DNA of 30,740 nt from the NCBI RefSeq assembly GCF_000003605.2, contig NW_003140815.1, positions 204,239-234,978 on the forward strand, in the 5' to 3' direction. Below, piece by piece: positions 872-24,400 of this stretch; the first letter of the stretch is position 1, and each line of letters starts with the position of its first letter. Source of the stretch: Saccoglossus kowalevskii. Its lineage: Eukaryota; Hemichordata; Enteropneusta; Harrimaniidae. The notes under the pieces are model-generated. The model was not told where the DNA came from. It saw nothing but the letters and a program-made list of their open reading frames with translations, and made no database searches. The translations under genes were made by a program, and so were the position numbers.

Positions 872-964
872 ATGGCGGACGGACTCCAGCCTCTACTTGA
901 GAAAGAAGATGCAGACTGGAGAAGAATTTATGACGTCATCGCCAAGAGAACAGTAAGATGGAAG
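872..964 (+). CDS. Gene A exon 1 (residues 1-31)
   Basis: It starts at ATG 872 in the context gtaATGG and reads MADGLQPLLEKEDADW onwards, ending Trp-Lys before the strong donor GTAAGT at 965. Phase 0. A stop lies close upstream in frame. A perfect CRE octamer lies inside it at 931-938. Confidence 0.75.
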
Positions 965-3900
965 GTAAGTTCAAACGCTGCGTTCGTTTGGTTGGCTGAT
1001 CTGTTGTTATGTCCTGTCGAGTGTCATATGTTTTATACGGTAAGGTAGGCCGATGCAAACACAAATACGACAAATGCGTATGGTGTACCGGTAGTATCGT
1101 GGTATGTGAATTACATTTGGTACGGGGTACGTTACCAGGGTTTGGGAAGGGACGGTGTATCGTTCAAATCAGTTAGGTGTATGGTAAAATCAGATGAGTT
1201 GACTATCTCGCTTTTCTGGTCCCCCTGGATGGTCGATATTTTTTTTCCAGGATTACATTTACTAGCCTATATCTGGCAATGACGCATTTTAACAATACAC
1301 AACATGTATTTAGGCTATATTCCATACGCTCTGTCGTGTCAGACCTTCTCCTCTCGACGCACAAGTCTGGGTTGTAACAAACAAGTGGACATAGAAATGG
1401 TGTTTCTCTCCCTACTGTGACGACCCTCTTCTGTTGGTCATATGTTATACTGAGTGAAAACATTTATCAAATCGACCGAGAAGTCCAGTTTGTAAAACAA
1501 TAAATTAATCAATGATATACAAAGTAATAAAATACTATACTGTTTCTCAAACACAAAGTTCAACATCGACATCGCCAAAAGACTGCTCGATAAATGGAAA
1601 GATACTTATGAGACGTTCAAAGAAGATGCCAAAAAGAATGGTAACCAAGTTAAGCACATCGAAGGCAGCATCGGTCTCTTCACGACGCAACTGGCGTAAG
1701 TGTATCACAATTTTCGTACATCGATACTCATGTTACTTTAAATAAAGTAGCCCTTGAAGTACTATATATTCAGACACAGCTAAGTGTACAAAACAACTTG
1801 AACTTGGGATCTAGATTTCGAAATTCCACATGTACAGTTTTTGGCAATACTATTGAAACTTTCGTTTTCAATACTGACTATAACATGACCAAACGCACCA
1901 CCACAGCTAACTATTGTATTGTATCTCACACCTGTCAAGACAGAGGATGTTCGGAAAGGGATAAATTTGCAACACGCATTATGCTAACCTGGTAACAGCT
2001 GTATGTCGCCAAGACTAGACATTCAAGGAGCAACAAACTTAGAATCATTGGCCTCAACTTGAATGGTGGTGAGGTAGTATTTATTGGTAGTTGCACGGTT
2101 CTTATTATGACTAATATTCGTCTCTCGCTTCTTATCAGACCTCTTCCCTCGGTTAAAAAGAAGATCAACAGAAAAATGCTGGACATTGTAGTCATGTTTC
2201 TAAAGAACCCAAAATGGCAGTTAACCAACTCAGTTCGACTACTGGCTTCCAGTATTATTTGGCAGGTATGCGAAGTATTTGTTGTTGTTGCATTTCTTAG
2301 CTTTCAATTGCGGTCTTCAGTTGCACGCCGACTCAACATGGTCTTATTTCCCACAATGCAAGTGGCCAATGCAGTTATGCAACTAAATCAAATATCTCGA
2401 AGTACTGGAAAAAACGCAGAAGCAACAGAAATAAAATCCCGTTATCTGTTGGATTTGTAGTTAATGGCTGACGCCACTTGGGAATACTGAACAATGGTTC
2501 TGGGCTCACCTTTTTAATATAGTCTATTCTGTGCGAGCTGGGTGATTTATGTATCGTGGTTTAGTCACGATGAAAAGTTATTGTGCAAGAAAAACTACAA
2601 CATCACCGATATTCCCTGTGTTCATTTAAAAACACAACAAGCATACGTTGTAAAAAGTCATTAAATTGCAATTTATTACAGAAAATGGAAGAAATAAAAG
2701 TGAATTCATTCGTTCACTACACTTTGCTTCGCGTCCAACACAAGGCACTAGTCGTCATTGTCCCGAGCACAGACCAACGGATAAAAATCATGTTAACGAC
2801 CTACGTGCCAATACGTACATACAATCAATTATATACGTCATCGATATTAAGATTTCCAGTCACCAACCGTTATCCGTGGACATTTTAAACAACGACTGAA
2901 ATACAATTTCATTAAATGTCACTCACTATACATGACCCTAAACTGTTGTGTGAAAAAAAACAGAACCGCAGGCCAAACAGTTATTATTGAACACTGAGAA
3001 TTGCCCATTCAACGCCTAGAGAATTAATGTTCCGGTCTGACTGCCATTCGATAGCCCAAGTAAAAGCAAGGTGAATAAGACAATAGCCTGCAAGTCTAGA
3101 CCAGGTCGCTATGTTGCTTTACAATGCCACTCTGCATACTGGGTGGCACAAAGAAACTAGGGGTGTCCGTTACACTGTAAACATGTACCTTTCAAAAGAC
3201 ACTGCAAAATAAATCATTATCGTTCTAGGACACAGTAAACAGTTTTTATTATCACAATGAACTACAGCTGAATCAATTTCACTGAAAAGTATTGTTCTCT
3301 CCACACTAACCGGGCGGCCGTGTTTCGTCCAAAATATTCCAGAATACAGTATTATTTTTCCAGAACCACGTTGCGATTATGGTATCAACATATATTATTG
3401 TTGATTAAAGTTTCGACTTCAGTTTGTCTTTGCACTTTTGAGCCTCTAGAACAAACACTCGCTATCCGGATATAAACAACTAACTAAGTAAACAAATAAA
3501 CGGACAGATAAATAAATAAACAAACAAATTAATTAATTAATTAATCCGAATTGAATGAAATGTTGAAAAAGCATTTCTTACTCACTCAGTAAATTACTCA
3601 GCCAGTTAGTCAGTGATATTGATATAATTTACACTTCGTGTGATTAAAAGAATCTATGGTAATACTTCCAGGGCTTAGAGAACAGATTGATGGAGTTGTT
3701 ATCTGCTTATGACAAATGGATGAAAGAAAACGACGAGTTCTTCCGAAATCCACCGACCACGGACATCATAGATGAAATACTTGAAGGGACTTGTAGAGAA
3801 ATAAAGTAAGTACAACTGTTATTATTAGTTGCCTGGGGTCGCGCAAAATCACCTTTCACGTGGTAAACAAGACACTGCGCATGTGCATATATTCTGTTCT

Positions 3901-6900
3901 CTGGTTGGTTCTTCCTTACATTGCGGGCAATACGCAGTCCATTCATACCACTAATTAGAACTCCGTAGATGACAATGTTAGCGTTTGGGTGAAAAAAAAA
4001 AAAACATCTAACAAAAATCAAAATATTGTTTTAGTTTGTTGAAACCCCTTGAATCATTTCAAGGGGTTTAAACAAATTAAAACAATATTTTGATTTCTGG
4101 TCAGAAAAAAACATGTTGGTCAGCTCAAACTCCTAAAAAATTGATGTAAACAAAATACAGATTTGTCAGTGAACAAAGCTACACACAAATCTGACAGCTG
4201 ACGTAATTAAAGTACGCCCTCGTACATCGCATTGCAGATAAAACTCGTTGGAAGAAACCCCATTGGCTAACAACACTCTTACGAACGCTGATAGGCTGAT
4301 TAGTGGCGTGAGCCCTTTAAACGTGATATGGCAGTACAGAATTGTTGCGGCAGTGTCGCAGTGTGGCAAATTTAAATACATGTATTTTAAAATATTGTTT
4401 TGTGATTTCTGCCTATTAGTTCGTGTAAAACGTGGTCCAAATATTCCAACATTCTATCCAGAATTTTATCCTACGCCGCTTCTCAACCACTGGAAAGAGA
4501 GAACGGTTATCAAGAGAACGGATACGGTGCTACTGTCTCTGTTATTCTTCAAAACTACCTCAATACGGTGAGTAGATGGAGCCCAGAAAGATGGAAATAC
4601 GCCATCTATAGTCTAAAGTTCACACGTGTTATTAGAGGCTGGTATTTGGAACTAAACCAAAAGAATATAATATGGACGCGAGATGAGTCAAAATAAAATA
4701 GATGCTAGCCAACCGTTCAAATCTCAAATCGTGTACTCTTAGCACAACAAATGCATTTCCTTTATGTTTATAAGTATTTATAAATTTCAGTGGCAGCTGA
4801 ATCCAACCAGCCAATCAACGAGTACAGTTCGCAACGACGTCATTTGAAAATGTTCAATAGAAACCTCTCGTTACAAAATTGTGAAATGTATTAATGCACT
4901 GGGAGTATTTAAAATTGTGAAATTGTATCCTATTCATTGCAGAGTGACAGTCAACTCGATTCCGACGTGTGTGCTAAATTTGTACCGCATATGTTGAAAC
5001 TTCTTAACAGCGCATCCTCTGATATATTCAAGTTGGATATATTGGCGGCAATATTGAAAATAGCCAATCGGCAGCCGGAAGTGATAGCGCCACACCTGTC
5101 AGCAATGATTGACTGGTACCTGGGGAATGAGGACGCGGAGCTTCCGGCGTTTATCCGTGAGTATGCTTTAATATGTTATTTACGAGTATATATTGCGAGT
5201 GGCTTGCATTTGTGACTTTCACAACAAATGTCCCTACTAATGTTGTTCTTTTTCAGAGATTATCCAGTCAACGTATCCATGTAATGAAGAAGCCGTTCTC
5301 GAGAAACTCGATCCATTGGTTGAACGCGCCAAAGAAGCAGATGATAACTATATTTCTTACTTATTGGTGTTATTGGAGGATGTAGCCCGACATCACCCGG
5401 ATGTAAGCTATTCGTTTTCATCTTTAATTTATGTGGCATGTAACAAGGTTTCGATTTTCCATGTTTTCTCGCAGATTTGTTAAAGCCCTTGTTCTGTTTT
5501 TTTTTTTCTTCAGAGAGTAAAGAGATATAATGCATTGATTTTGGAGAGCCTGGAAACCAGCGACGCCATGACAGTTAATAGTCTTAAAGTATTAGTGGTA
5601 CTTTCATCAAATTCACCCGTGGAATACGTTCATCTGTTAGACACATTGATTCAGTTGACTGAGAAGAGCAACGGCCAGATCTGCCACGAGTCTAATCGCG
5701 TTCTTGCGAATATAACAATTAATAACGTAAGTTTCTATACTTGACTCTCGTTATTTCCTCTTATTATGCCCTCCTGACCATGACAGCCAATCAGATTTGC
5801 GCGTTACAGATAGACATGTCTGATATGCAGATAAGTCTGCCTAAAATTTTCTAATGTCTATCCACATCCGGGAATTTTCATCCTGAATTTACGTCAATAA
5901 CTTGTCAAGAACAGACACGATAAGTGGCAATATTTATAAAATGACTAGTGTGCCAAGTTTACCTCCACTATTTAAATACCTTATTGGAAAGAAAACTGAT
6001 TTTTGTTTTATTTTTAGTCGAGCTTCAATTTACCTTGAATTCGCTTGTGCGACCAGGCCGCGCGATTCATGACGTTTGTACTGTGCATGCGCAATTCGTT
6101 TCTATAAAGCGTCAACTAATCGCGAATTTTGCCGCTGCACGGATCTGTTGTATTTTGGATTTATTACGTATTTTGTGTATTTTGACTGTATATCTAAATA
6201 TTAAGAGTTTATGTGTTGAAAGAAAATGGTGCAGCTCAGTTCTGTGTTTTGATGCGATGTTCCACGTCGATTGGTGTACGAAAGAGCACAGTGTGACGTT
6301 TGTGAAAGTAGAACGTGCAGAAATTATAGATGTATATACAGTCCCTCTATCTCTTTAATTGAAACAGAAAGAGCAGTTGATATTTACATCTCTATATAGA
6401 GAGTGTGTTGCATGATAAAACCCAATACAATGTTGTCATTCTTTCTATTTATAGATTTGTACGCAGCCGTGCAACTTGAATACTGCCCTGGAAGGTTGAT
6501 GCACTACTGCAATTTGTGTTTTCAAATTTACTCCGTATAGTAATACAAATTTTCACCCCAGCATCGGTAGATATAAAGTCTTAGTAACCCTCAAAGCTTG
6601 TTGTCAACCACGAATTCGTCTCGGTTGATAATAAGCAGCTCTTCGGGCTTATTACAATTTGTGGGGGGGGGTGGTTGAACATTCATGACGTCTAGGCGCA
6701 AACCAATAACAGCTTTTATTCGCAGATGATATTTGATTTCGAAACTCTGACAAACGAACATCACGTTTCCTCTTTGTCGTCTATTTGGGTACGTGTAGTT
6801 TTGTATCCAATTACGAATATGATTTCCTCTCTACAAAATACAGGAAACCGCCAACAGAGTACTATGGAACCTTTTCAGAACATTGGAAACTGCCCAGAAC

Positions 6901-7958
6901 GAGTTCTACCTACCAACCTTGGTACTTGTCAAACGCGTAGGCGAGAACTACAAGACAGAACTGGAGAAATACGAAAACAAGATACGAATTATTGCCCGGA
7001 ATACAATAGCAGGGGTTCCAGAGCTTTCACAGACAATCCTCACAATTATTGATCAGACACGGTAAGTTTATTTTGCAGCTAAATTTTCACTGACGCTATC
7101 ACGAGATCGGGCGAAGCCCACATGTCTACGTTTCGATCAAAGATGGTTATTTTTTTCTATAATTACATGGCTCCAGTTCAGTGAGCTAAGACATTAATTG
7201 ACTAGTTTAATAAGGTAACATGATTTTGTGTATGATTCAAGATGGCCGATTGGCGGCAATTTGCAATTGCATTGAATGATTCAATAAAACTATGGCTTCG
7301 CAAATCATTCAAAAATGACGAATTGATGACTATTTTGTTTTATTTTTGAGATTCATGTGTCCTACCATGTTTACTGATTAATTTGTTTAAAATCTGTCAC
7401 GTGGACGAGACATCATTGTACATCGCATTTTGCAATCCAGTAAATAAAACCGAGGACGCTACACTGCCTTGCTAGGCTTTTGTTTATACAAGTTATACAA
7501 CGTGAGTTGACAAGCTACATATCATGAATTATTCACATAACTATATTCTTTTCAAACTTTGCAGCGTGCAAAAGCAAAGCAATAATGAATATGCTGCAGT
7601 TGATAGTCACAATGGAAATGAAAACCCGCGTAATGAAGGCATCGTCTCGGGCACTGTTTCCGGTCACGTGACGGACAAGTTCGAGGTAAACGGTAGCAAG
7701 GTAGGAGGAATTGACGGCTACTTACAACTATGTGGCTGGGCTCTACTCTTGTCCTACGCGAAGGTTAAAATTCGGGTACAGGACCAAGATAAGATAATAT
7801 CGGAACAAGAGCAAAGAGTCGTGAAGCAAAATTTGAAAATAAAAGATCTAGAACGAAAGCTCGAAGAGCAGGGCCAAAAGATAGCAGAATTATCGGCAAT
7901 TTTAGAAGGCCTTCAGTCTTTTTGTGTTCGAACAGTTTCAATTGAAATCAGAAAATAA
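872..7958 (+). CDS. Gene A: uncharacterised alpha-solenoid (ARM/HEAT-like) protein with C-terminal coiled coil, 614 aa, 11 exons
   Basis: Join of 872-964, 1559-1695, 2139-2265, 3672-3805, 4462-4567, 4943-5156, 5257-5402, 5514-5726, 6726-6788, 6844-7061 and 7565-7958 gives 1845 nt with no stop before TAA 7956-7958. All introns are GT-AG and phases agree. Residues 1-480 are almost entirely amphipathic helices with repeated Leu/Ile/Val spacing, as in ARM or HEAT repeats. Residues 485-540 form a polar, Gly-rich linker. Residues about 551-602 are a heptad-like Gln/Lys/Glu/Leu coiled coil. No signal peptide, membrane segment or catalytic motif is visible. The protein is probably a cytosolic scaffold. 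I do not recognise the family. The solenoid part weakly recalls the N-terminal half of VEPH1/Melted, but no PH domain follows, so this is not a claim of orthology. Gene B lies 2.6 kb downstream on the same strand. Confidence 0.82.
1559..1695 (+). CDS. Gene A exon 2 (residues 32-76)
   Basis: Helical segment beginning FNIDIAKRLLDKW and ending near TTQLA. The acceptor AAAG at 1555-1558 is weakly pyrimidine-rich; the donor is GTAAGT at 1696. Enters in phase 0, leaves in phase 2. Confidence 0.75.
2139..2265 (+). CDS. Gene A exon 3 (residues 77-119)
   Basis: Acceptor TTATCAG, donor GTATGC. Encodes helices including MLDIVVMFLKNPKW and SVRLLASSIIWQ. Enters in phase 2, leaves in phase 0. Confidence 0.8.
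3672..3805 (+). CDS. Gene A exon 4 (residues 120-163)
   Basis: Acceptor ACTTCCAG, donor GTAAGT. Encodes GLENRLMELLSAYDKWMK and a charged helix ending CREIK. Leaves in phase 2. Confidence 0.8.
4015..4096. repeat. Near-perfect hairpin, 38-bp arms and 6-nt loop, in gene A intron 4
   Basis: Left arm 4015-4052 and right arm 4059-4096 are reverse complements with about two mismatches. The loop is ATCATT. The arm nearest the loop is AACCCCTTGA / TCAAGGGGTTT. It would be transcribed within the gene A intron. It could be a very small foldback transposon or an intronic precursor-microRNA-like hairpin; sequence alone does not decide. Confidence 0.85.
4462..4567 (+). CDS. Gene A exon 5 (residues 164-199)
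   Basis: Acceptor TCTATCCAG, donor GTGAGT. Encodes ILSYAASQPLERENG, a polar loop, then VSVILQNYLNT. The reading frame is fixed by phase 2 from exon 4. Confidence 0.75.
4775..4892. mobile_element. Dispersed miniature element, copy 1 (gene A intron 5)
   Basis: Shares blocks with 26950-27118: a TATTTATAAATT left end, an internal AGCCAATCA(A/G)CGAG(C/T)ACAG block followed by CGCAACGA, and a TTGTGAAAT right end. The ends are imperfect inverted repeats (ATTTATAAATTTCA against TGAAATGTATT). No transposase is present, so it is a non-autonomous MITE-like repeat. Target duplication not resolved. Confidence 0.55.
4943..5156 (+). CDS. Gene A exon 6 (residues 200-270)
   Basis: Acceptor TTCATTGCAG, donor GTGAGT. 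Encodes several solenoid helices, for example FVPHMLKLLNSAS, LDILAAILKIANR and VIAPHLSAMIDWYL. Leaves in phase 1. Confidence 0.88.
5257..5402 (+). CDS. Gene A exon 7 (residues 271-319)
   Basis: Acceptor TTTTTCAG, donor GTAAGC. Encodes EEAVLEKLDPLVERAKEAD and YISYLLVLLEDVARHHPD, paired helices of a HEAT-like repeat. Leaves in phase 0. Confidence 0.88.
5514..5726 (+). CDS. Gene A exon 8 (residues 320-390)
   Basis: Long polypyrimidine tract and CTTCAG acceptor, donor GTAAGT. Encodes YNALILESLETSDAM, LKVLVVLSSNSP and YVHLLDTLIQLTEKSN, typical ARM/HEAT helix pairs. Phase 0 at both ends. Confidence 0.88.
6726..6788 (+). CDS. Gene A exon 9 (residues 391-411), small exon
   Basis: A 63-nt exon with phase 0 at both ends. 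Acceptor TATTCGCAG, donor GTACGT. Encodes FDFETLTNEHHVSSLSSIW. Because it is symmetrical, it could be skipped without breaking the frame. Confidence 0.7.
6844..7061 (+). CDS. Gene A exon 10 (residues 412-483)
   Basis: Follows a 55-nt intron. Acceptor AAATACAG, donor GTAAGT. Encodes ETANRVLWNLFRTLETAQN, LPTLVLVKRVGENY and a final Ile/Thr-rich helix. Leaves in phase 2. Confidence 0.85.
7565..7958 (+). CDS. Gene A exon 11 (residues 484-614), linker and coiled coil
   Basis: Acceptor ACTTTGCAG. Encodes an Asn/Gly-rich linker with GTVSGHVTDKFEVNG, a short hydrophobic stretch (LQLCGWALLLSYA), then the coiled coil with repeats such as EQEQRVVKQNLKIKDLERKL. Stop is TAA at 7956-7958. Confidence 0.85.
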
Positions 7959-8600
7959 CTTTAATACACATTGAGATGCCAAAACACGGACATTTAATGT
8001 TGATCTGTGTTGTCAACTTGCCCCGGACTGCCTCGTTTACATGGCGGCATGGTGATGAACATACTTGCAAATTTATTATCTTTTTATATTAAACGGGATT
8101 TCATGAGGGATATACATATTATTATTAATCATATTTTTGCTTGCGTGGTAATAAATCTGCCAAAGTTTATCAATATTATATTTTACTGTACTTACTGCGG
8201 CTGCTTCAGCTTCAGCGAATATTTGTTTTTAACCTTTATATATGTATAACCCAAACCATGACTAACTCAAATAATATATTTACATGTAATTATCATATTC
8301 AACGGGTCACATGACCCTGGGTTTTCCACCCACGATAACACTGACCAATAACACTGAAGCTCCCACCAAGCCATTAATCTTGTCACCCTTAAAAGAAACC
8401 ACTGAAATAAAAAGGGGCGGTGGGCTAGTATACACGTATATTATGATATATATATATATATCTATCTATATAAAGAATATTTATATTTTAAGTTACATGC
8501 AATTTTGTACTGTATGAACTCTACAAATATTCTGTGTGCGAATGTTATTATAAAAGTTAAAACCCTTTTGTAGGATATTTTTTTTGTACGACCGAATAAA
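7959..8600 (+). other. Gene A 3' UTR and poly(A) signals
   Basis: AT-rich non-coding sequence after the gene A stop. AATAAA hexamers occur at 8406-8411 and 8595-8600; the second is followed by a T/GT-rich stretch as expected downstream of a cleavage site. A short (TA)n tract lies near 8446-8461. Confidence 0.45.
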
Positions 8601-8882
8601 TAATATTCAAAGTTTGGTTTTGTTCTGTGTGAGTTTTTATTTGATTTGAATCAAACAAAACTTCAAAATTCACTAGTATCAAGTGCCACCACCTCATTAT
8701 TTTGGTTCTATTTAAATGCATTAAAATCTCTCTTATTCTATCTCTGCACAGTTGTCAAACCTATGTGAAACACTGGCTTATTCCCACTAACCCCTGAAGC
8801 AATAATGTTTAGCATATTAAGCATAAATGTAACGGCAAGCTGCGAATTTGCATAATTTTTTTTTTTAATTTTCAAATCGGCT

Positions 8883-8976
8883 TTAGATGCAAAATTGCCG
8901 CCGAGATCTTGTTGAGACTGAACCCCGTGACTACTACTTATTTACCATCCAGATCTCGGCTGCTATTTGCGTCTAA
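8883..8976. repeat. Stem-loop with about 28-bp imperfect arms
   Basis: 8883-8912 pairs with 8949-8976. The core GCCGAGATCT matches AGATCTCGGC exactly, and the outer part TTAGATGCAAA matches TTTGCGTCTAA with one mismatch. The loop is about 36 nt. It may be a foldback element remnant; no gene is associated. Confidence 0.6.
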
Positions 8977-9488
8977 GGGTTTCAATCTCACGAGTACGTC
9001 ATCAAACCCGACACCTTTTCATCCGTTTCAGCGTCACCTGATATGTTGTCCGAGTACGTCTTCCAACATTTTGTTCACCCGAGTTCACATCTAGTCGTGT
9101 TTTTAATAATATAGTACTGATATTTATTTTCATCATGACTTGACAAGTGAGTTTTATTTGAAATACCATGGCGTCCTGAAAACGTGCAGTGTAATTGAAC
9201 ATATTATCACGGACACCAGTCACCAAACTGACAATGCAACGAAGCTTTTAGAAGATATCTACTTTTATCCGTACATGATAAGATGATACACAAACAAAAA
9301 ATAACACAATATTGTGCTATAATATTTGAAATAACCGACGTGAAAGGAAGCAACTGCCTACTGTTACAATATTGGCCATATGCTTAGCAAAATACAACTG
9401 CATAATATCTAGCGCCTATTCACATGTTTTCTACACGTATTTAAAGAGTGAAATGAACAATACATATCCATCACTAACACGTTATTAA

Positions 9489-9650
9489 TTAAAGCATGAG
9501 GGTCGTCTCCTGCGCATGAGCGGGAATTGAGTCCCAAGCGACGATAACACACGCGAAAAACGCAAATGCTCATGTGTAGACGCTTGTTTATAAACAATGG
9601 GACGCTATGGCTATCTGACGCATGCGCAGGTGACGACTCCACCGCTTTAA
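9489..9650. mobile_element. TTAA-flanked MITE, family 1, copy 1
   Basis: 162 bp bounded by TTAAAGC and GCTTTAA. Terminal inverted repeats carry GGTCGTC(T/A)CCTGCGCATG and its complement. The interior matches 19419-19572 in opposite orientation, including GGGAATTGAGTCCCAAGCG and AACACACGC. The TTAA at both ends suggests a piggyBac-type target site, but no transposase is present. It holds GCGCATG palindromes resembling NRF1 sites. Confidence 0.85.
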
Positions 9651-9810
9651 ATAATCTGCATACTTACATATTTTACATTTAGCGACTAATATGGCTATCC
9701 TAGCGATGTTAAAGATAAAATTAATTGCACTGGAACTCCTTACGTAAACTGGCTGGTATTTTCACAATACATAACAAATCCACGCTCTGTTCCGTATCGC
9801 TTCGTTCCAC

Positions 9811-9940
9811 GTGAAGCGCCACAGTCGTGACGTAGCTCGCGTTCGAATTTCATATAAGGAAACAATATATTTGATACGTTGTAAATGTTGTGAGGAAACC
9901 ACTTCGAACACGGCGCGGTGCGACGACTGTGGCGCTACAC
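9811..9940. mobile_element. CpG-rich inverted-repeat element related to family 1
   Basis: The ends GTGAAGCGCCACAGTCGT and ACGACTGTGGCGCTACAC are inverted repeats with one mismatch. The interior TTCGAATTTCAT followed by AACAAT also occurs in reverse in the element at 29346-29476, so the two are related. The TTAA ends are not preserved here. Confidence 0.65.
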
Positions 9941-10031
9941 ATTTCGACGTCAATGAAAGTGGCAGGGTCCCAGTGTAGCAAGGCCCCAATGTATGTTGGG
10001 CTTTATTAGTAACAATGTGCTTGTTGAAAAC

Positions 10032-10332
10032 TTTACGTGGCGATAGACGTCGCGCCACGCATGCGCGAGATATATGGGTCTCATATAAAACAAAGATGGC
10101 GACTTTGACTGTTGCGCAGATCAACGAGTACCAACTGAGACGTTACGAAGCTTTAATTAGGTATTTTTTTAGGTGATTGGAAGGTATCAAATGAGTCACT
10201 GGTGGTAATTAATGTAAGTCGCGCCCAGGTAAAACCTCATACGTGATTTCCATTAGAAGAGCGCATTGGATTGTATCAATGTTATCAACACAAATATCGC
10301 ACATGCGTAGCGCGACGACTGCCGCGCTTTAA
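10032..10332. mobile_element. Composite or diverged family 1 element upstream of gene B
   Basis: The left part GTCGCGCCACGC, then TATGGGTCTCAT, resembles the left half of the 29346-29476 element. The right end GCGCGACGACTGCCGCGCTTTAA is a family 1 terminus with TTAA. The length exceeds the other copies, so it may be two partial insertions or one with an insertion. Boundaries are approximate. Confidence 0.45.
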
Positions 10333-10571
10333 AATTGTTAAATTCAAGGGACGACGTCCAAACATATAGAAAGGAACAATTTCTTCTCAGTTAGATTTCT
10401 CTTGGAACAGCTTTCTCTTGAAAACTGAAAAATATCATATAACCATTTAATATATTAACACCATCAACAAACTCTAGTGTCAAGCTATACGGGGTTGAGG
10501 GAATCTGACAACACATTATTCCTCACTAGACTACAGACATATCAGATTGGTTTCCAGTTGTTGCCAAGGTG

Positions 10572-10809
10572 ATGGATCCCAGAGCCAACAATGATTGGCG
10601 GTACATGGCGATACGTTTGGGCTACAGTTTTGATGATGTTCAAAAATGGGGAGCATCGTCGCATCCGGCGATGGAGGTACTCAACGACTTGTACCAAAGG
10701 TACGACACACAGAACGACCTCCAGACAACCCTTGCTCTTCTCGCATCACTCAGAGAACTTTACAGACACGACGCAATAGAAATTATCGAAAATGCGCTAG
10801 AGTCGGTTG
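10572..10809 (+). CDS. Gene B exon 1: Death domain (residues 1-79)
   Basis: ATG in gtgATGG; donor GTAAGT at 10810; leaves in phase 1. Encodes six predicted helices, including DWRYMAIRLGYSFDDVQKW, AMEVLNDLYQRY and AIEIIENALESV. The frame stays open upstream (VVAKV before Met) to a TAG at 10527-10529, so an upstream spliced exon cannot be excluded. Confidence 0.85.
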
Positions 10810-13800
10810 GTAAGTGTCATTCGAGCATATCATCTGTGAAATATAAATAATGACATTTGTATTTGAAAACAACGTTATGGTTATAGAATGTACGTCCAAT
10901 GAGCCTGCCCAGCTAAAGACAATTGAAACAGTGCTCCATTTGCAGAGTAGATGAACCACATACACAGTTAGTTGGAATTTAAAGTCTACATTTACACAGA
11001 ATAGTGACTATTAGTAAAGATATTTAATGTAATGATTGAGTTTTGAACATTTAGCTGTTAACTCATAATGTTCTGATTCACTGAAGATAAAATCTACCTG
11101 TTCAGTTTGCAAACTCCATAATATTCAATGAGCGCACGATTTTACTAAATGCATCCCATCCTCACACAGTTGGCCAAGTGATTCAACATCAATTGAAAAC
11201 AATTCAGACCCTGCCGAAGGTTTACATTGCCCACAGCACCGATGACAAAGACAAAGCTGAAATGATATCGAGACATATTGAAATGGCTGGGGTAAAATGT
11301 TCTCTGAAGAGTTACTATGGTGATGATGAAGACAGGGGCAATGAGGGGGAGAATAGTGACATGTACGCCGCTAAGCTGGTCTTAATCGTATGCACACAGA
11401 AGAGTCTCCAAAAAGACATTTTCAGTCAGGCGGTAAGTCATCTTGAATTATACAATTTATTTGCACATGCGCACCTCCATGCCCCTGCTCGACCTTATCT
11501 TCTGTCTTGTTCCACAGGTAAAGATAGCAACCCTTCTCAATAAGCCAGTCGTTTTTGTGTTGATAGAAAGCTTTACCTGGTCACAAGATTCAAACTATTC
11601 CAGCTACGTACGTCTTCCACTATTCGAATTTAGTAATAGTCAGATGAAGGGTGATCAATCTTTATGGAGGAGCAAAGTGTTCACCGAGCTCCTCGGAGAG
11701 GTCATTTTTTATGTCTCACCAGATTTTAATGAGGCGACCAAAGGTAATTTATACACTGTAACTAATAGCTTTCATCATCATTTTATGATAGAGTAATGGG
11801 GAATGAAGTTTTGCTTTGAATAATCATGTTGAAACAAACCAGTTTAAAAGTGGATGAGTAATATGAGTCTTTTGATGATAGTTTTAACGATCAACTACGA
11901 TCATGAAATGTTTTCTGTGAAGGTTATGAAGGGAGAATTATGTCGGCAACCAGACGCCTTTAAATTTGACTTGTTTTCTAATTATAAAAAAATGCATGAA
12001 TGACACATTATTACATGTCTACAATTCCACAATTGTTTGTAACATGTGTAGTTAGGAGTCAATCGAAACCATCAGCCAGATATTATTTCTGCTATATGTA
12101 CCTTGTACCATGGCGTCATGTGAAGTAATGTATATATCATATTCCTATACAATGCATACACATTTTCCAGATTACCGTGATTGGATGATTGCTTTAAATG
12201 ACATTCCTGTCAGAAACTTAACAGATTTATCAAGTTCTTCTTCAGAGAGCATGCAGGTATGGCATAACACCATCCTCTATATATAGTGTTTAGCCCTGTT
12301 GTCATACAAGATGACAGACAGAGTTACTAGTATAGGTTATTGCCCGACGCCATTGTAGTTGTCCAGCGTCCTGTGTCAACATTTTTTTTAAATATTTCTT
12401 TTTGCAAACAATTAACAATATTACTTTCATACTTGGTACATATGTTTCTTGTGTGGTCCTCTACGTGATTTCATCATTTCCTCAATTTTTAATTGAAATG
12501 CTATATATTGGACTCAAGTTGCTTTGATACTTGGTATATATGTATCTTGGAGAGATCGCTATTAGATTACCTAATTTTAGGGAATATTTTTGTCATTTTT
12601 AAAATTTCTATATTCGACTTCTTCTGAAAAAAAACGCTACCCGAATAGCTTCGATACTTGGTATATGTGTACTTTGGGTGGATCTCTATTAGACTAGTTC
12701 ATTTCGTGATGTTAGGGGAACACTCCACGAATTCACAGACATATCCTAGAAGCCGACTTTGAATTGGGTACACTTAAACTTATCCTTATCAGTGATAAAC
12801 TTTAAACATAAGAGTTGCGACACTTAAATAGAGTGTAAACAAAGACAATGTTATTTGATTCCCCACTACGATGTTTATGTAACTATGCATGGACTGCAAG
12901 ACTGTGATCTGCCAAACAATTGTCATATCGCTCGTACTGACACCCGTCATGGACTTGGTCAGGATTCCCACGGGTGGCGCTTGTATTGAAACAATATCAA
13001 GCGTATCTTCACATTGCTATCTACAAGCGTGGTTTATAAAACAATATCCGTGTCGCTTTTAGCAAGTATGTGTTATATGGGCAGCTGACAGTGTGTGACA
13101 CCACTTGTAACAATATAATTCGTAAAACATTATCACCTGCAACAAATTTACCCACGATGTGGAGGTGCTAAAATCACTTTTGTAATTTGTATTTAATGTA
13201 TTTTATTCAATGTATTTCGGGAAACCTATGCGGGTGTATTGAATCACTTTCCTATCATAAAAGGTGCTCAATTTGGATCACGTGATTTAGCTTATAAAAA
13301 GACATGTTACTTGAGACTTAGGGAGACACAGATATAGACTCAGGGAGACACACCGGACCTAGTCCGCTTGTTTGCTCTCTGGGCTTGGCCGTTGGGCCAA
13401 CGCCCAGATACAACATTTGTACTTATCTGATGTCAAGACTCCGAATAAAGATCTCCGGTTCACACCATCCCCGTTTACAGTCTCAATCCTTCCCTGACAC
13501 AATTATAACAACTCCGACTTATAGATAATTTAATAAAATCAAAGATTGAGCCTGAGAACAGATAATTAATTATTCAAAATGAGTGATTATAAATGTTGTT
13601 ATTACTACTAATATCTAAAAAAAACTCATCTCATGTGCGAGAGTGTATATTATATTATATAAGGAAAAGCAAGCATAGCTCTGCTCATGTCATGTGCACC
13701 AGATTGTGTGCCGATAAGTTATTTACGTACAGTTCCTGCATATCTGAACACAAATTTAAACCACATTCTTACAGTTTCTAGTGTTCTCTAAATCTTTGTC

Positions 13801-15130
13801 TCTTTTCCAGTCTGCCACAGACATCCCGCCTGTGTTGATATCATACCAGTGGAGCATGCAACATGAGGCCAAGCAAATTTATGCCCGACTCACAAAGGCT
13901 GGATTTTCATGTTGGCTGGACATCTTTCACCTGGGAGGCAGTGAGTGCATTTACAACAAAATAGAGAAACTAATTTCGGGTTTCAAGGTAATTTTTTTTC
14001 AGGCACATAGTAGCTGAATTTAAAGAATTTCCGATGAAAATTTAAATTCAACATATCGACAGTCAAGTGTTATAGTTCGAGTTTGAGTTGATCATGAGAT
14101 CCGTCATGGTATTGTTGTTGTTGTTTTTTGTATCCCGCCCTGTTATCATCACTGAAATATACATCAACTATTCCATTACTTTATTTATTAGTTGGTCAAT
14201 AGTCCTTATATGTAAATAGAATCGATATGTAGTTGCAGTCATATATTTCTATGCAAATACTTTTATGCATGAACCAGTGCGCGTTTGCGTCATGACGCTG
14301 CAGTCTAGTTGGGTTGAAAATATAATAACATCTGCACAATGCAGAATGAGATTTTTAACTAAATTTTACTCTTTTAACAGGTGGTTGTAATGTGTGTGTC
14401 ACGGAATTTTCTCAGCTCAAAGGCCTGTAGACAGCTTGGTAACTTGGTCAAAGTTCTTCAAGTACCTATACTTCCGATACAATTAGAAGATATCTCCTGG
14501 CCTGAAGAAGATGCACTGGCAACCCTAATACAAATGAACAGATGTATTGACTTCACTGAGGAATTTGGATCCAGCACGAACATAAATGATGACAGATTTG
14601 GCGAATTACTGACGCGATTACGAGAAGAAAACTTTCATAAAGGAGATCCCTCAAGCCCAGCAGTAAGTAGGAAAGCAAAAACTCTCGCTAGAGTAAACAA
14701 GTCGTTCACGTATGTCCAGAAGACTGTTGAGCGTAAAAGGATGTCACTGACTGGACAGTCACAGATTCCAGCAGAAATGTTGCCAAGACGGAGCCGGTCA
14801 CACGAACGTTTTGAAAGCGTTCGAAATACCCCCGAAGCAAAAAGGAAAAGCCCTTATATATCCAGATATACTCCTCTGCCGAATATTAGCTCTAATGGAA
14901 CTACCCCATTGGAGCGGTTATCGGTTAATCACGAAGTGGATGAGCATACCCACAGGGACTTAAATTCTGAAGACAAGGATAGTTTACTTCTCAATATCAA
15001 GTTGCCTAACGGGACACGCTTACGTAGATATTTCCGGCAAACAGACACGTTGGAGCAACTTCTCTCCTATACAGAAAGTCATGCTCATGCCGGGATCACG
15101 AGGTTGGAAATAACACTGTGGAAATCATAG
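10572..15130 (+). CDS. Gene B: Death-TIR-TIR protein with C-terminal UBX-like segment, 579 aa, 6 exons
   Basis: Join of 10572-10809, 11170-11432, 11518-11743, 12171-12256, 13811-13987 and 14381-15130 is open for 1740 nt to TAG. Residues 1-80 are a Death domain (MDPRANNDWRYMAIRLG, the NDW signature of UNC5/MyD88-type domains). Residues 96-240 are a divergent TIR domain (KVYIAHSTDD, KLVLIVC, NKPVVFVLIE). Residues 277-410 are a second TIR with SYQW, CWLDI and VVVMCVSRNFL. Residues 415-525 are a basic, Ser/Arg/Pro-rich linker. Residues 529-579 (LLLNIKLPNGTRLRRYF) resemble the first half of a UBX domain. No signal peptide or membrane span is seen, so a cytosolic signalling adaptor is likely. Death plus TIR is the MyD88 logic, but the tandem TIR and UBX-like tail are not. 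ATG 10572 has a good Kozak context (G at -3 and +4). Confidence 0.9.
11170..11432 (+). CDS. Gene B exon 2: first TIR domain, N-terminal half (residues 80-167)
   Basis: Acceptor CTCACACAG, donor GTAAGT. Encodes PKVYIAHSTDDKDKAEMI (TIR beta-A and alpha-A), an acidic loop YYGDDEDRGNEGEN, and AAKLVLIVCTQKSL (beta-C). Leaves in phase 0. Confidence 0.88.
11518..11743 (+). CDS. Gene B exon 3: first TIR domain, C-terminal half (residues 168-242)
   Basis: Follows an 85-nt intron. Acceptor GTTCCACAG, donor GTAATT. Encodes VKIATLLNKPVVFVLIESF (alpha-C and beta-D), then a long loop and LLGEVIFYVSPDF. Leaves in phase 1. Confidence 0.85.
12171..12256 (+). CDS. Gene B exon 4: linker between TIR domains (residues 243-271)
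   Basis: Acceptor ATTTTCCAG, donor GTATGG. Encodes DYRDWMIALNDIPV and a Ser-rich tail. It bridges phase 1 to phase 0 exactly, which supports it despite its small size. Confidence 0.8.
12425..12720. repeat. Decayed tandem repeat in gene B intron 4, about three units
   Basis: Three copies start near 12428, 12526 and 12653 with a core of (G/C)ATACTTGGTA(C/T)AT(A/G)TGT followed by a variable CTTGG and a GG(A/T)CCTCTA/GGATCTCTATTAGA block. Unit length is roughly 100-130 bp with indels. No reading frame is kept across the copies. Confidence 0.6.
13071..13510 (+). mobile_element. Probable solo LTR in gene B intron 4
   Basis: About 440 bp starting TGTTATA and ending TTATAACA, a 7-bp inverted terminus of TG...CA type. 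It has a TATA-like GCTTATAAAAAGAC at about 13289, then a more GC-rich transcribed-looking stretch, and AATAAAG at 13444, the LTR order U3-R-U5. No matching target duplication and no internal coding region was found. Boundaries are tentative. Confidence 0.5.
13811..13987 (+). CDS. Gene B exon 5: second TIR domain, N-terminal half (residues 272-330)
   Basis: Acceptor TCTTTTCCAG, donor GTAATT, phase 0 at both ends. Encodes PPVLISYQWSMQHEAKQIY, AGFSCWLDIFHLGG and YNKIEKLISGFK. The SYQW and CWLDI motifs mark a TIR subtype I associate with large invertebrate TIR expansions. Confidence 0.88.
14381..15130 (+). CDS. Gene B exon 6: second TIR C-terminal half, basic linker, UBX-like end (residues 331-579)
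   Basis: Acceptor CTTTTAACAG; TAG at 15128-15130. Begins VVVMCVSRNFLSSKACRQLG and continues VPILPIQLED and CIDFTEE, completing the TIR. Then comes a linker rich in Arg/Lys/Ser (PRRSRSHERF, AKRKSPY), and finally the UBX-like stretch at 529-579. No downstream exon is needed because the stop is in frame. Confidence 0.88.
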   Translation: MVVMCVSRNFLSSKACRQLGNLVKVLQVPILPIQLEDISWPEEDALATLIQMNRCIDFTEEFGSSTNINDDRFGELLTRLREENFHKGDPSSPAVSRKAKTLARVNKSFTYVQKTVERKRMSLTGQSQIPAEMLPRRSRSHERFESVRNTPEAKRKSPYISRYTPLPNISSNGTTPLERLSVNHEVDEHTHRDLNSEDKDSLLLNIKLPNGTRLRRYFRQTDTLEQLLSYTESHAHAGITRLEITLWKS

Positions 15131-18400: not shown

Positions 18401-21400
18401 CTAAAACAAAATTTGTATTTTAGATTTGTTAATATTTAAAATCCTCGATTTTTTTTGCAATGTATGTGTAATGTTGTAATACGGAGTTGATATACGGGGT
18501 TGTCAATACGTTACAGTATGCACAATTAATAATAGTCACGTCACAGGGATTATCACGTGAACTTAACTGGTATTGGGTTCTGAGGGCGTTATTATGCATT
18601 CAATCCTCACATAACTACAAAAAAATGCTAAATTATAGATCTCAGATTATATTATATAAAGTTGTAAAATAATATGCGTAAACTTAGTCAGAACAAAATG
18701 TCGGAAATTAATGTCACACATTTGTACACCCAAGTCTGGAATGTGCAATTAATCTATGTTATTGCGAATATTTAGTAATTAAAAGTAAAACACTCTGACA
18801 TACCCATCAAAAACGGGAATTTCCATATTCCTTTGGTGTCTGTGGTGTCTTTCCCTAGGTTGTTTGTAGAATAAAATAACAACAGCATAAGAGTAAGAAT
18901 ACTAATAAGTCGATTACAAGAGTCTTGGTAATAGACTATTGATTGGTTTCAGCTACATGTCGTCACACTATTGTCGAATCGTTCAAGCATTTCCACCACA
19001 CATTGCGATGCTGTGCTTCAAATCAAGCACAGGTCTGCGTGATTAATGGCGGACGTGATGACGTATTCTGGCGAAATAATGACGTGATACTGAAAAGCGT
19101 AACTGGCCACCAAAATCTCGCCGTGAGCGTGAGAACGCCGCGACCTATTATTTGGTATGCAGTAGAAGAGATGATGGAAGATAATGGAGCACTAATCGCG
19201 TTGCTCTCTCGCTTCCAGCGAGATTTCGGCGACTATTTACTTTTAATGTATATTGTGATGTTTAACTACTAGTATATAATCCTAACACGATACTTAGAAA
19301 CGAACTTACGGAACAAGTAAAAGGTTATGTACCAATCAAGTACAAAATTGTAGTACCTTAAATGTAAATTGAGCAGAATATATCATGTGTAATACGTATC
19401 AGACATTCACCTCTCCTTTTAAAGCGGGGGGTGTCGTCACCTGCGCATGCGTTGGTTGGCCATAGCGTGTCACTGTTTACAAACAAACGTCTACCTAGCG
19501 TTCGTAGCGTGTGTTATCATCGCTTGGGACTCAATTCCCGCGCGTGCGCTGGTGACGACCCTCCCGCTTTAACTAAGTAACAAGTTTTCGAAGATTTCGA
19601 TTGTTACCTTTTGGCATGTACATGCTTGTGTAACTCAATCATAACACATGAGGCAGGGGGCGGCACGATGTTATTGAACACACCTAGAGCATTCAGAATA
19701 CAGGATATCATCGAATCTTGCTGAAAAAAAATGTTGTTATGAAATTTAAATGTTTACAACCATGCCCGCCAAACCACTAAACTGTCATGCCACAAGTTCG
19801 GCACAATATACCCATATTATAGTATTTATATAATCTACGTCTACGTGCCCTGTTCGATTATAACAGATTTGAATACGATAAGGTCAAACAATGTGTGTTT
19901 CTATGCCTACGATTTCCAACAATATTGTGCAGTTAAATTAAGCCATTTTTCTTCAACGACAATATTTTAGCCAGAAACCAGAAAATAAAGTTTGAGTCAT
20001 TTTCTAACTGACATTGTATTTATTGGGTGAATTAGAACACAAGTGATTATTATCAAAATAATTAAAATAAATTTTAGTGCAAAATTAATGTTTTTACAGT
20101 ATTTGTATTTCCCCTTTTCTAACATACAATAATTACATATATAAAAGAATATGTGCGAGGGTGTACTTACTCCTGCGTATGAATACATTTTGTACGTTCT
20201 ATTCTGTGGTGACCGGGCTTTTGCAATCATGTTATCTGCAATTTCGTTTAGTAAAACGCCTAGAATTAAACAAACGGATTAAACAGACAAACGGCCTAAT
20301 CCGTTTTATGATTTCTATATTTATTTCTATATTTCTATTGAAGTGTATTTATATGGGCATACGTTGATATTTTTAAAACCCATTTTTTCAACAGACGCAA
20401 TATTTCAACCGTATTTTTGTTGTAAATTATAGAAATAATAAAACAGAAAATTGCTTAGAAATATTACACGAATAATTAATTGAAAATATATATAACCATT
20501 ATTTGCAACCGGTTTTTAGTTGAGAATTAGGATTTATTTTTGAAGGTGCACTCGTCTTAATGCTATATTTCTATAAACACTTGTCAGGTTTGTATGCCCA
20601 AATGATTTCGAAAATAAAACGCAAATTAATAATACACGCGAATATCTTGCCCGATGATGTCGATGTTAATATTCCATGTAAGTGTGTTACGTGATTGGAT
20701 GTTATACAGCACAGTGAGCAATACAAGTTGCATACCCTATCATGTGTGAATCGAAGGAACTGTGTACGAATCAAATTTCGATAAAAACGCATCACTTAAA
20801 CGTTTTCCATCCTGATAGCCGACAAATAACACAGACCATGCCATACGCTTGTCAATTTGAATGTACTCCTCACCTTTACAGAATCGTTTCATTTCCATGT
20901 TATCAGAGCCCTCTTTCACTTTTGTCGCAAAGTTATTTAAATCCATTAGCTTATCAAAAATTGAGCTATTGAACCACTCTGGGAGTGGTTTGTTTCCAAC
21001 TTTCTATGAACAAAATAAACAAAAAGGTGTTTAATTAAGACATATATCTTCAGTTACATTCAGTTACCGTTTTTGTCTCTGATTAGCAATTTTAGTAAAA
21101 AATTACCAAAATATCCTGTAAACGTTTAATTCGATTCCGTGCTGACTATTGTTATTTGAAAAAAAAAATCTTTTCACAAAGACCTAAAGAATCTCGAGAT
21201 ATTTGTATGCGTAATATTTAGCATAAGACAAATTCAAGATTATGATTTTATGAAAGCTAAATAGGGTGAATACTTTCAATGACTCGAACCCGAAAATAAA
21301 TCCGAATCCGTGGCCAACTTCAGCATTGTGTCTTATTCTTCTACTTGCTGTCCCATTCAAGTTCATTAGTCACTTCTATCCAATTATATAGTATTATTCA

Positions 21401-24400
21401 GGTTTCGTACAATAGGCCTTTCGTATGACCCCGTAAAGGTCACACATCCTGGTAATTTCTTGGGTTGAGAAATTTATTACCAATGAGAATTTTTCTGAAA
21501 TAATGTACAAAGTTATCGTCGAAGAACAAAAGGAGTTTAAATATTCGAATATTGAGGTTAAGTGCCATAAATTAGTGAGGTTATAGGACAATGCCACCCC
21601 ATCAAAAATGTCAGGATATGCGGCCTTTAGAAGTCATGCGTGTGACCCATTCCTCACCTCGAAGTAAGACGAATCCGCAACTGCAACAAGGTCGAACATC
21701 GATGTACTGTGCTCTAAGCCAGATTTCTCTCTCATAAAATCTAAAAAATCCTTTTAAATGAAACAAAAAACAATTTGTCGGGAGTGATATAGAATTTATT
21801 CTTTCTAAATAATTACAATATTGGTATGTACATGTACTAACAAAAAAGTATCATATTTACTCATTACCAGAGCAACGCACAATAGTCATAACCTTATCGT
21901 GTACACCCCTCTGGACTGTCAGTTGTTGCCATGGTGTTGGCACATACATTTTGTCATCCTTTTAATTTTCATTGCTATAAATTTTCGAAAGTTTAAGATT
22001 TCAAGGCATTCGACGGTCACTGAATTCACTGAAAAACCCAAGAATAATAATAAATTGAAGATAAATTGAAAAATATGTACATATACATAAAATTCATGCT
22101 ATTCTATAAAATAATGAGGTCAAAGTTCAGAGTGGTTTCTCTGTGGCTCAACTTATGAAAAGTGATAAACTCTCTATCCCCCCAAAAATAATGTTTACAT
22201 GCAGCTCAAGTGATTTGAACAGTTTTTTAGATTAGCATTAGATTAGCACTTAATATTTGAGATGACAATGGACGTTTTGTCCCGCTGTCTTAGATGGAAA
22301 GATAGACGTATAGTTTTAGCTTTTTAATAGGTAAATGATTGTTTTGAAAATGAGCCAATAGTGGATTTGATGGTAAGCGAATATTGCATTGTCCAGCTTA
22401 AGGGTAGCAAAAGGTTACGCTATGCTAAGTTGCGTTCGGACTGGAGTGTACATACATACGTACATACTGAAGTTTTTTTGCAATGTGATATAATAATGAC
22501 AGATGGTTTTGAATTATAACTGGTCTGTTTCTATGTAAAAAGAAAAATAAACCAAAAAACAAACAAATGAAATTTATACAAATCTTCAGATTGGGGGGGG
22601 GGGGGTTCTTATGAACCAAATGAAAACTCATTGAATCCGGATCTAACTGGATGATTACTTTCAATGATTAATTACTAATGCTCGTCAATTTGTTGATTCA
22701 GTCGGCCATTTTATGTGACAGTCATATCCGCTCCTTGGATTCACTTTCATAGATTTTAATTTTTTCTTGAGACACTTGATCAATTTTGTTTAAATGTGAT
22801 ACAAAACCAAGTATAAAATAATAGGTTTGATATTCATGCCAATTTGTTTTTGGTGTGAATGAAATTCTCGTGGCACCATTTTCTATTTCTCAATTGTAAA
22901 TTCTGCCAATTAAAAACACGTAATATATTTGGACTATCTGAAATTTTAACCTGTTATGATTTAGCTCCATTTTTGGAATCCAAATCACCTGACTATTTTA
23001 TAAGATTGTGAATCTGGTCAGAATTTAGAAGTTTATGTTGCAATATTTTGTCGAATTTAATCAACAAAATATAGCCTTTTCAACTGTTAAACACAAAAGA
23101 CACCTGCGCTTCCAGGGACATTGCTCCTTTGATTAAATGCGACTGTCGATCAGTTTTGTAGTGTAAACCTGGAAAAAACGTACTTTTATATTTAGAACTT
23201 AACGTCTACGTCACGTGCGTACCTTCCCCACTGACAGCAATATGATTGTCTTTCGACATTGCTCATTGAATTCTGCTACCTTCTAAGTTGGAACCATTGT
23301 TATGACTGTTCAATTGAAATAGCTATGGACTAACAATGAGTTTGAACAATGAACGACCCGTTACAAGAACATATATTTACAAGGGATGAGACTTCAGAAC
23401 ACCCTTGGATACTGAATGGAGAGTTACACAACTCGGGCTTGCAAGTTCGTAAGTCGGACGAATCTCGTTCACCATTGATTCACTCCTTTACCTGAACTTT
23501 CGTCACCTTGTGGACTAACAAACAGTATCATATCAGTCGTGGATCGAATCTACTAAGCGTTGCATACTGAACTATTCGTATCTCTTCAATGTATATACCC
23601 TTACTGCCCGGTAACGATTCCCGTACGTATTTCTAGCCTACCTACTTATTGAGCTAATAGTTTACGATTGTTGAGTTCCCCAAACTCGGTAGAAACCCTG
23701 ACCACAGTAGCACAATCACATAAGTCTTGCTGAGCCCATGTTGTGTACTGATGTCCCTATTAAAATACATGCCTTATTTGTTTTCTCGTACTGCCTAACC
23801 ACTTCGCTCTTCTTTGCTTCGTCTAGAAGAGCAAGATATTTCGGACATGGAGGAAATCCTATGAGCTGAAACAAACAAAACACAGTGAATTACTAGAAGC
23901 TAAAGAAGGGATTTTGTGCGCTGACGTATATTGTGTTATCATGTCAAGTGACGTCACAACAAAAATATGTTATATTTATATTCACGGGATATGTTTTCAT
24001 CATGGAAATTAAGACAAATATTAATATACAAATTATAAAAAATAAATAGGACAAATTATAAATGACAAAACTTACACAATCCATCGTTACCATTGTAGTG
24101 TGTATTGGTATTGGTTGCCATGTTAACACATCTTCCGGAAACCATACTTCTTTTCCCTTTGGAGGATATAAGCCAGCCATGTTGCACTGTGCAGACATCA
24201 GTGTCCTGTCTATATCAGTACTACGCGCATAGATCTCATTTGAATTGTACGTTGTATTTATAAGAATGTCACCATACCTATTACGTAACCACTCACCAAG
24301 GTAATAATGCTGCAATCTGCCAATCTAAGGAAATATACCGTCCCGAGACAGTTTAGTTTTAGCGTAGTGGTAGGTGATAAAACGAGTCCTCGCAGAATGT

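Follow-up and report, generated by a model that had tools for sequence, protein, structure and literature searches.

An apparent ecTIR-DC 6-like variant in Saccoglossus kowalevskii with two TIR domains that appear inactivated and a truncated UBX-like tail

Invertebrate TIR proteins outside the TLRs, MyD88 and SARM1 are numerous. One of their families, ecTIR-DC family 6, reportedly goes back to Gerdol et al. 2017. In an excerpt of PMC6836662, a clam protein with an Armadillo (ARM)-like N-terminus, a central Death domain and two TIR domains is presented as characteristic of this family, and such an ARM-Death-TIR-TIR member is described as carrying all of its domains in one transcript. According to a passage of PMC5549309, ecTIR-DC families 6, 11 and 13 are elevated in mussel gills. 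Passages of other papers describe three MyD88-like proteins of Aplysia that have an Armadillo-type fold (PMC9334734), ARM-TIR proteins, listed in the legend to a figure covering oyster and other animals (PMC4346834), and mollusc Tolls, in which two TIRs in one protein are known (PMC4929906). A catalytic glutamate is given for SARM1 in part of PMC8635717. The function of invertebrate TIR proteins other than TLRs, MyD88 and SARM1 is called hypothetical or unknown in excerpts of PMC6321704 and PMC9334734.

We analysed a stretch of 30,740 nucleotides of the hemichordate Saccoglossus kowalevskii (contig NW_003140815.1 of assembly GCF_000003605.2, positions 204,239 to 234,978), hereafter the window. 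Judged by sequence, it holds an ecTIR-DC 6-like variant whose two TIRs appear inactivated and whose UBX-like tail is truncated. A first-pass annotation had assembled a Death-TIR-TIR-UBX-like protein here and noted that a second TIR combined with a ubiquitin-fold tail was known from no described family. The second TIR is no novelty, because the combination of ARM-like part, Death domain and two TIRs has been published as ecTIR-DC family 6 (excerpt of PMC6836662). The UBX-like tail holds up as an addition: no paper covering UBX domain, TIR domain and death domain jointly, and none pairing UBX with TIR, was found in a literature search that mostly excluded subscription papers, where the tail may be described, and the main texts of PMC6321704, PMC6836662, PMC9334734 and PMC7075850 contain no mention of UBX. 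Such a half-UBX tail on a protein of this kind looks unusual.

Domains, exon chain and C-terminal tail

The features of the locus are collected in Table 1. Joined at GT-AG introns, exons E2-E6 and the part of E1 from 10572 onward (10572-10809) form one frame of 579 aa. The first-pass annotation had proposed this six-exon protein, 10572-15130. The in-frame join stands, and position 10572, where an ATG is present, is neither the start of the domain nor, probably, that of the gene, which probably starts upstream. The frame of the Death exon is open 5' as far as 10530, where CACTAG provides an acceptor in phase 0, and the sequence between 10530 and 10572 reads without an in-frame ATG. A start at 10572 was rejected because the Death match improves with the upstream codons and because the entry phase of the Death exon in a paralogue on contig C4186 is that of the acceptor at 10530. 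An alternative first exon, 10096-10160, was ruled out by phase (by hand), and a start of E2 at 11106 was discarded as a phase misfit to the E1 donor, which 11170 fits. The intron between E4 and E5 contains a 57-base direct repeat (12521-12577 and 12648-12704, 79% identical).

Table 1. Features of the locus in the window; positions of paralogue matches are those on L039 and L040
Feature	Position	Strand	Basis or remark
U1, candidate first coding exon, ATG at 872, ARM-like N-terminal part	872..964	+	splice sites and phase
U2, N-terminal part	1559..1695	+	splice chain; paralogue match not above control
U3, N-terminal part	2139..2265	+	splice chain; paralogue match 35 against control 33, other strand
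U4, N-terminal part	3672..3805	+	splice chain; paralogue match not above control
U5, N-terminal part	4462..4567	+	splice chain; paralogue match not above control
U6	4943..5156	+	best of 363 ORFs is L039:9772-9999; score 52, reversed control 34
U7	5257..5402	+	best of 363 ORFs is L040:21-212; score 81, reversed control 35
U8	5514..5726	+	best of 363 ORFs is L040:1046-1288; score 71, reversed control 40
U9	6844..7061	+	counterpart L040:1385-1605: order and end phase equal, length similar; no significant sequence match
U10, proposed internal form, donor AAG/GTAGGA at 7700, phase 0, to 10530	7565..7700	+	inferred
U10 read-through, coiled-coil-like end (by eye) and stop	7701..7958	+	alternative 3' end or end of a separate gene
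E1, Death domain exon	10530..10809	+	Pfam Death 7.4e-6 as piece; low-confidence six-helix model
E2, first half of TIR-A (diverged)	11170..11432	+	splice chain, Pfam, tblastn
E3, second half of TIR-A	11518..11743	+	splice chain, tblastn
E4, short linker exon	12171..12256	+	splice chain; paralogue counterpart at equal place and phase
E5, first half of TIR-B	13811..13987	+	Pfam TIR_2 1.1e-15 for TIR-B
E6, second half of TIR-B, basic linker, half-UBX tail, stop	14381..15130	+	splice chain, Pfam
Half-UBX tail, strand-strand-helix, profile positions 2-42 of 82	14951..15127	+	Pfam UBX, models

The Death domain of the proposed architecture was upheld. In the 579-aa protein the Pfam Death match (0.0017, 18.9 bits) lies below the cut-off of 22.6, as a piece with the ten in-frame codons before 10572 it reaches 26.4 bits and exceeds it, and in a long model of 1101 aa it falls just short (21.5 bits). 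A single-sequence model of the exon had a mean pLDDT of 58.4; among the best 50 of its 74 Foldseek matches the first 18 rows were all Death domains (top E 0.1, prob 1.00), with no match below 0.001. Weak matches only, to Death (0.042) and TIR (1.0), were obtained in a PDB sequence search with the full model.

Two TIRs in one protein were likewise borne out by Pfam. TIR_2 was matched in two stretches of the 579-aa protein (5.5e-22, best 279-391) and, above the cut-off, in two stretches of the 1101-aa model. Taken as a piece, TIR-A is just below its own cut-off of 28 (9.8e-6, 26.5 bits), and its designation rests on these 26.5 bits together with its homology to, and position relative to, a strong TIR of the paralogue. 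The matches listed by a genome-wide TIR_2 search include the TIR-B exon (1.4e-4) but not TIR-A. A profile built from five TIRs (TIR-A and TIR-B of the window, TIR-A and TIR-B of the C4186 paralogue and one TIR from contig C1644) matched AbTIR at 3e-7, SARM1 at 7.5e-7 and MyD88 at 0.35; on this profile the window TIR type is nearer AbTIR and SARM1 than MyD88.

In the alignment with AbTIR, the glutamate of WTNYE is aligned with the E of NCRRE, a column which we take to hold the catalytic residue of AbTIR and SARM1. This presumed catalytic column, which rests mainly on AbTIR since in the HMMER alignment the SARM1 glutamate comes after a two-residue insertion, contains E in 3 of the 3 aligned paralogue TIRs, A in TIR-A of the window and L in its TIR-B. 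A scan for the glutamate motif in 30 loci, limited to three reading frames of their middle part, gave a plausible site in few and was set aside. NAD cleavage is predicted to be lost in both window TIRs, and NAD-type signalling, which the first-pass annotation had entertained, is not favoured: the profile is near AbTIR and SARM1, but both TIRs are without the presumed catalytic glutamate. Because of this absence, signalling by assembly rather than by NAD cleavage is the more plausible mode. A TIR that has no such glutamate can still act, since the oligomerisation and toxicity of an amoeba TIR protein are independent of its putative catalytic glutamate, as stated in part of a preprint (PMC13142454).

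The UBX profile is matched over its cut-off of 21 by the tail as a piece (8.4e-7, 29.5 bits), in the 579-aa protein (2.4e-5, 24.9 bits) and in the 1101-aa model (23.7 bits), and nine shuffled versions of the tail yielded neither a UBX match nor a score above any Pfam cut-off. The protein ends about 12 residues beyond the match. The FPR loop that contacts p97 sits in the second half of a UBX domain. In the single-sequence model of the tail, two strands and a helix make up the UBX-matching part (mean pLDDT 66.0), and no regular element follows the helix. The top Foldseek match was a designed ubiquitin variant (0.65), the UBX of human UBXD2 ranked fourth, not significantly, and none of the 422 matches fell below 0.001. 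Each of the six matches of a PDB sequence search with the tail was a Src kinase chain, at 0.69 or worse, and the last exon had no tblastn match in phages. FP[RK] was not found in plus-frame ORFs of at least 20 aa at 15.0-18.7 kb, and the highest donor score listed beyond 14950 is 3.6. The UBX-like tail of the first-pass annotation was retained as a profile match over the cut-off that covers half a domain, while a complete ubiquitin fold with its FPR loop was given up; in the same way, the structure prediction returned strand-strand-helix and nothing regular beyond it, short of a full beta-grasp. The tail is best described as a truncated UBX-like (ubiquitin-fold) piece that may offer a small binding surface.

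The C4186 paralogue and the upstream exons

The TIR repertoire of the 572-Mb genome is large, with at least 43 TIR_2 and at least 23 TIR matches (overlapping sets, counted exon by exon). A Death-TIR-TIR query was run by tblastn against 38 TIR and TIR_2 loci at a threshold of 1e-3, and six of these matched (L013, L038, L027, L023, L016 and L026), L013 and L038 being one gene. Contigs C4186, C1644 and C843 were read at greater length. One gene among the 38 loci, on contig C4186, has a Death domain and two TIRs in the order of the window. From L040:1049 to its stop it forms one open frame in which every intron is GT-AG, with one intron more than in the window, inside Death; one of its exons ends at 5491. 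A coiled-coil exon (L040:2723-2954, by eye), entered in phase 2 and left in phase 0 through a strong donor, leads into the Death exon. From Death onward, Pfam matched Death (1.3e-9) and TIR_2 (1.1e-48, two stretches) and did not match UBX. The five junctions between the end of Death and the last exon have phases 1, 0, 1, 0, 0 in the window and in the paralogue, and DYRDW..NDIPV in E4 looks similar, on inspection by eye, to the paralogue's EYKNY..DDTPI. The paralogue ends in SVSCILI (L040:6442), with a CaaX-like CILI by eye. A gene on C1644 combines one TIR with a Death-like stretch, half of which gives a tblastn E of 0.084, and an ORF more than 1 kb 3' of this gene, its candidate last exon, ends in TVCSIL, with a CaaX-like CSIL by eye (L042, minus strand). 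The window protein has no CaaX-like end and carries the half-UBX there instead. In the intron between coiled coil and Death of the C4186 paralogue, L040:3032-3712 is an open frame that by eye is LINE ORF1-like.

Upstream of E1 in the window, the U2-U9 peptides were compared with 363 ORFs of at least 30 aa from both strands of L039 and L040, with reversed peptides as the control. For U2-U5 and U9, no match to the paralogue ORFs was clear of the controls in a matching place. None of 2000 shuffles reached the score of U6, for which tblastn gave only E 0.70, or that of U8 (shuffles 22.9 +- 4.2), whose match lies shortly 5' of the coiled coil and Death of the paralogue. The U9 counterpart scored 34, fourth of the 363 ORFs, with 32 for the reversed control, and 98 of 2000 shuffles reached it. 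With the whole upstream protein as the tblastn query, the U6 match was the only one reported against the paralogue, and none was obtained against the 38 TIR/TIR_2 loci. Sequence comparison and exon order indicate that U6-U8 are homologues, in collinear order, of exons preceding Death in the paralogue. No Pfam ARM match was obtained in the upstream part or the long model, and the label ARM-like rests on the published description of the family and on position.

The proposed donor at 7700 has a score of 8.5, the highest among the 20 GT sites evaluated at 7600-7975; the other 14 donors of the model score 4.5 to 11.9, all on an approximate donor matrix. Joining 7700 to 10530, as we infer, yields one open frame from 872, the long model of 1101 aa. 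The exons from 872 would probably supply an Armadillo-like N-terminus that the first-pass annotation had missed.

A hairpin, a dispersed repeat and an exon of another gene were also recorded. A near-perfect hairpin occupies 4012-4099, an 88-base stretch with an 88.6% match to its own reverse complement. A dispersed repeat of about 170 bases (copies 80-82% identical) is found at 9485-9654, between U10 and Death, inverted at 19417-19576, and at L040:2488-2660, shortly 5' of the coiled-coil exon of the paralogue. A histidine acid phosphatase exon lies on the minus strand at 23947-24324 (Pfam His_Phos_2 4e-14), with further such exons by eye at about 18.2-21.6 kb, of which two stretches tested gave no Pfam match.

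Weighing the readings

The observation reported in the first-pass annotation was confirmed in part: its domains were right, its N-terminus was probably incomplete and its C-terminus was overstated. One gene with ARM-like, coiled-coil, Death, TIR and TIR parts is the likeliest reading for the window and for the paralogue, and we judge it probable that the window carries a larger gene of the ecTIR-DC family 6 kind, transcribed as a unit from 872 to 15130, with an ARM-like N-terminus, a Death domain and two TIRs, whose product would serve as a non-enzymatic scaffold. Its Death domain would assemble with Death-domain partners, and the two TIRs would join assemblies formed by the TIRs of receptors, or by those of paralogues in which the presumed catalytic residue is retained. 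The ARM-like part, if it adopts that fold, might restrain or recruit, the signal would pass by assembly and without NAD cleavage, and the tail could be a small binding surface lacking the UBX part that grips p97.

Two separate genes, an ARM-like/coiled-coil gene at 872-7958 and a Death-TIR-TIR-half-UBX gene beginning with or just before the 10530 exon, would mean that the long form has been split in this copy. The in-frame chain U1-U10 runs to the stop at 7958 with a coiled-coil-like stretch up to it, each of the four GT sites listed 3' of 7820 has a negative donor score, and the ATG at 10572 could begin the second gene. We nevertheless regard such a split as rather unlikely, given that the frame is open 5' of 10572 without a further in-frame ATG as far as 10530, that the Death score rises when this stretch is included, that the coiled-coil exon of the paralogue has a strong donor in the phase taken up by the Death exon, and that ARM, Death and two TIRs share a single transcript in a family member already described (excerpt of PMC6836662). 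Less likely again is a decaying paralogue on its way to a pseudogene, its catalytic residues and tail lost; the six exons are open, with splice sites intact over 1.7 kb of coding sequence and phases kept by the paralogue, even if the divergence of TIR-A to a score below the cut-off, the absence of the glutamate from both TIRs, the stop in U10 and the missing CaaX-like end would all suit decay.

The link to p97/VCP or ubiquitin pathways put forward in the first-pass annotation is weakly supported, as the UBX match ends before the half that holds the FPR loop. A working UBX, perhaps completed by a downstream exon, appears very unlikely: scores over the cut-off in three contexts and the rank of UBXD2 speak for it, and they are offset by a match that stops at position 42 of 82, a model with no regular element past the helix, the Foldseek values, the low donor score after 14950, the missing FP[RK] and a paralogue without UBX. 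Equally improbable, in our estimate, is a pseudo-enzymatic ARM-Death-TIR-TIR protein acting as a soluble regulator, which would co-assemble with NADase-competent paralogues and, by a ubiquitin-fold tail in place of the CaaX-like membrane-anchor end, couple them to ubiquitin or p97 control, and in which alternative ends of one gene at 7958 and 15130 would yield an ARM-coiled-coil inhibitor and the full scaffold, respectively.

The paralogue pair, with and without the presumed catalytic glutamate and with differing tails, offers a direct test, for ARM-Death-TIR-TIR proteins, of NAD cleavage against assembly and of the role of the tail.

Comparison with known systems

The tail of the window protein corresponds to the first half (strand-strand-helix) of the UBX in UBX-domain p97 cofactors and differs from it in the absence of the second half with the FPR loop. 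MyD88 shares the order of Death then TIR. It has one of each, whereas the window has two TIR_2 stretches, a probable ARM-like part and a half-UBX tail, and the window TIR sequence is nearer SARM1 and bacterial TIRs. With SARM1 (ARM-SAM-SAM-TIR) the locus shares a relatively close TIR sequence and the combination of ARM with TIR, the ARM-like part being probable here. It differs in having two TIRs, in missing the presumed catalytic glutamate and in carrying Death in place of SAM, no SAM being among the Pfam matches of the window protein. Compared by description only, and from an excerpt of PMC6836662, in which UBX does not occur, ecTIR-DC family 6 differs from the window protein in the half-UBX tail, the catalytic residue not being mentioned in the passages on the family. 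The long ARM-like N-terminus of the family may have a counterpart in the exons from 872, where U6-U8 match the paralogue in order and Pfam gave no ARM match. The window protein resembles the family in a central Death domain followed by two TIRs and in its invertebrate origin.
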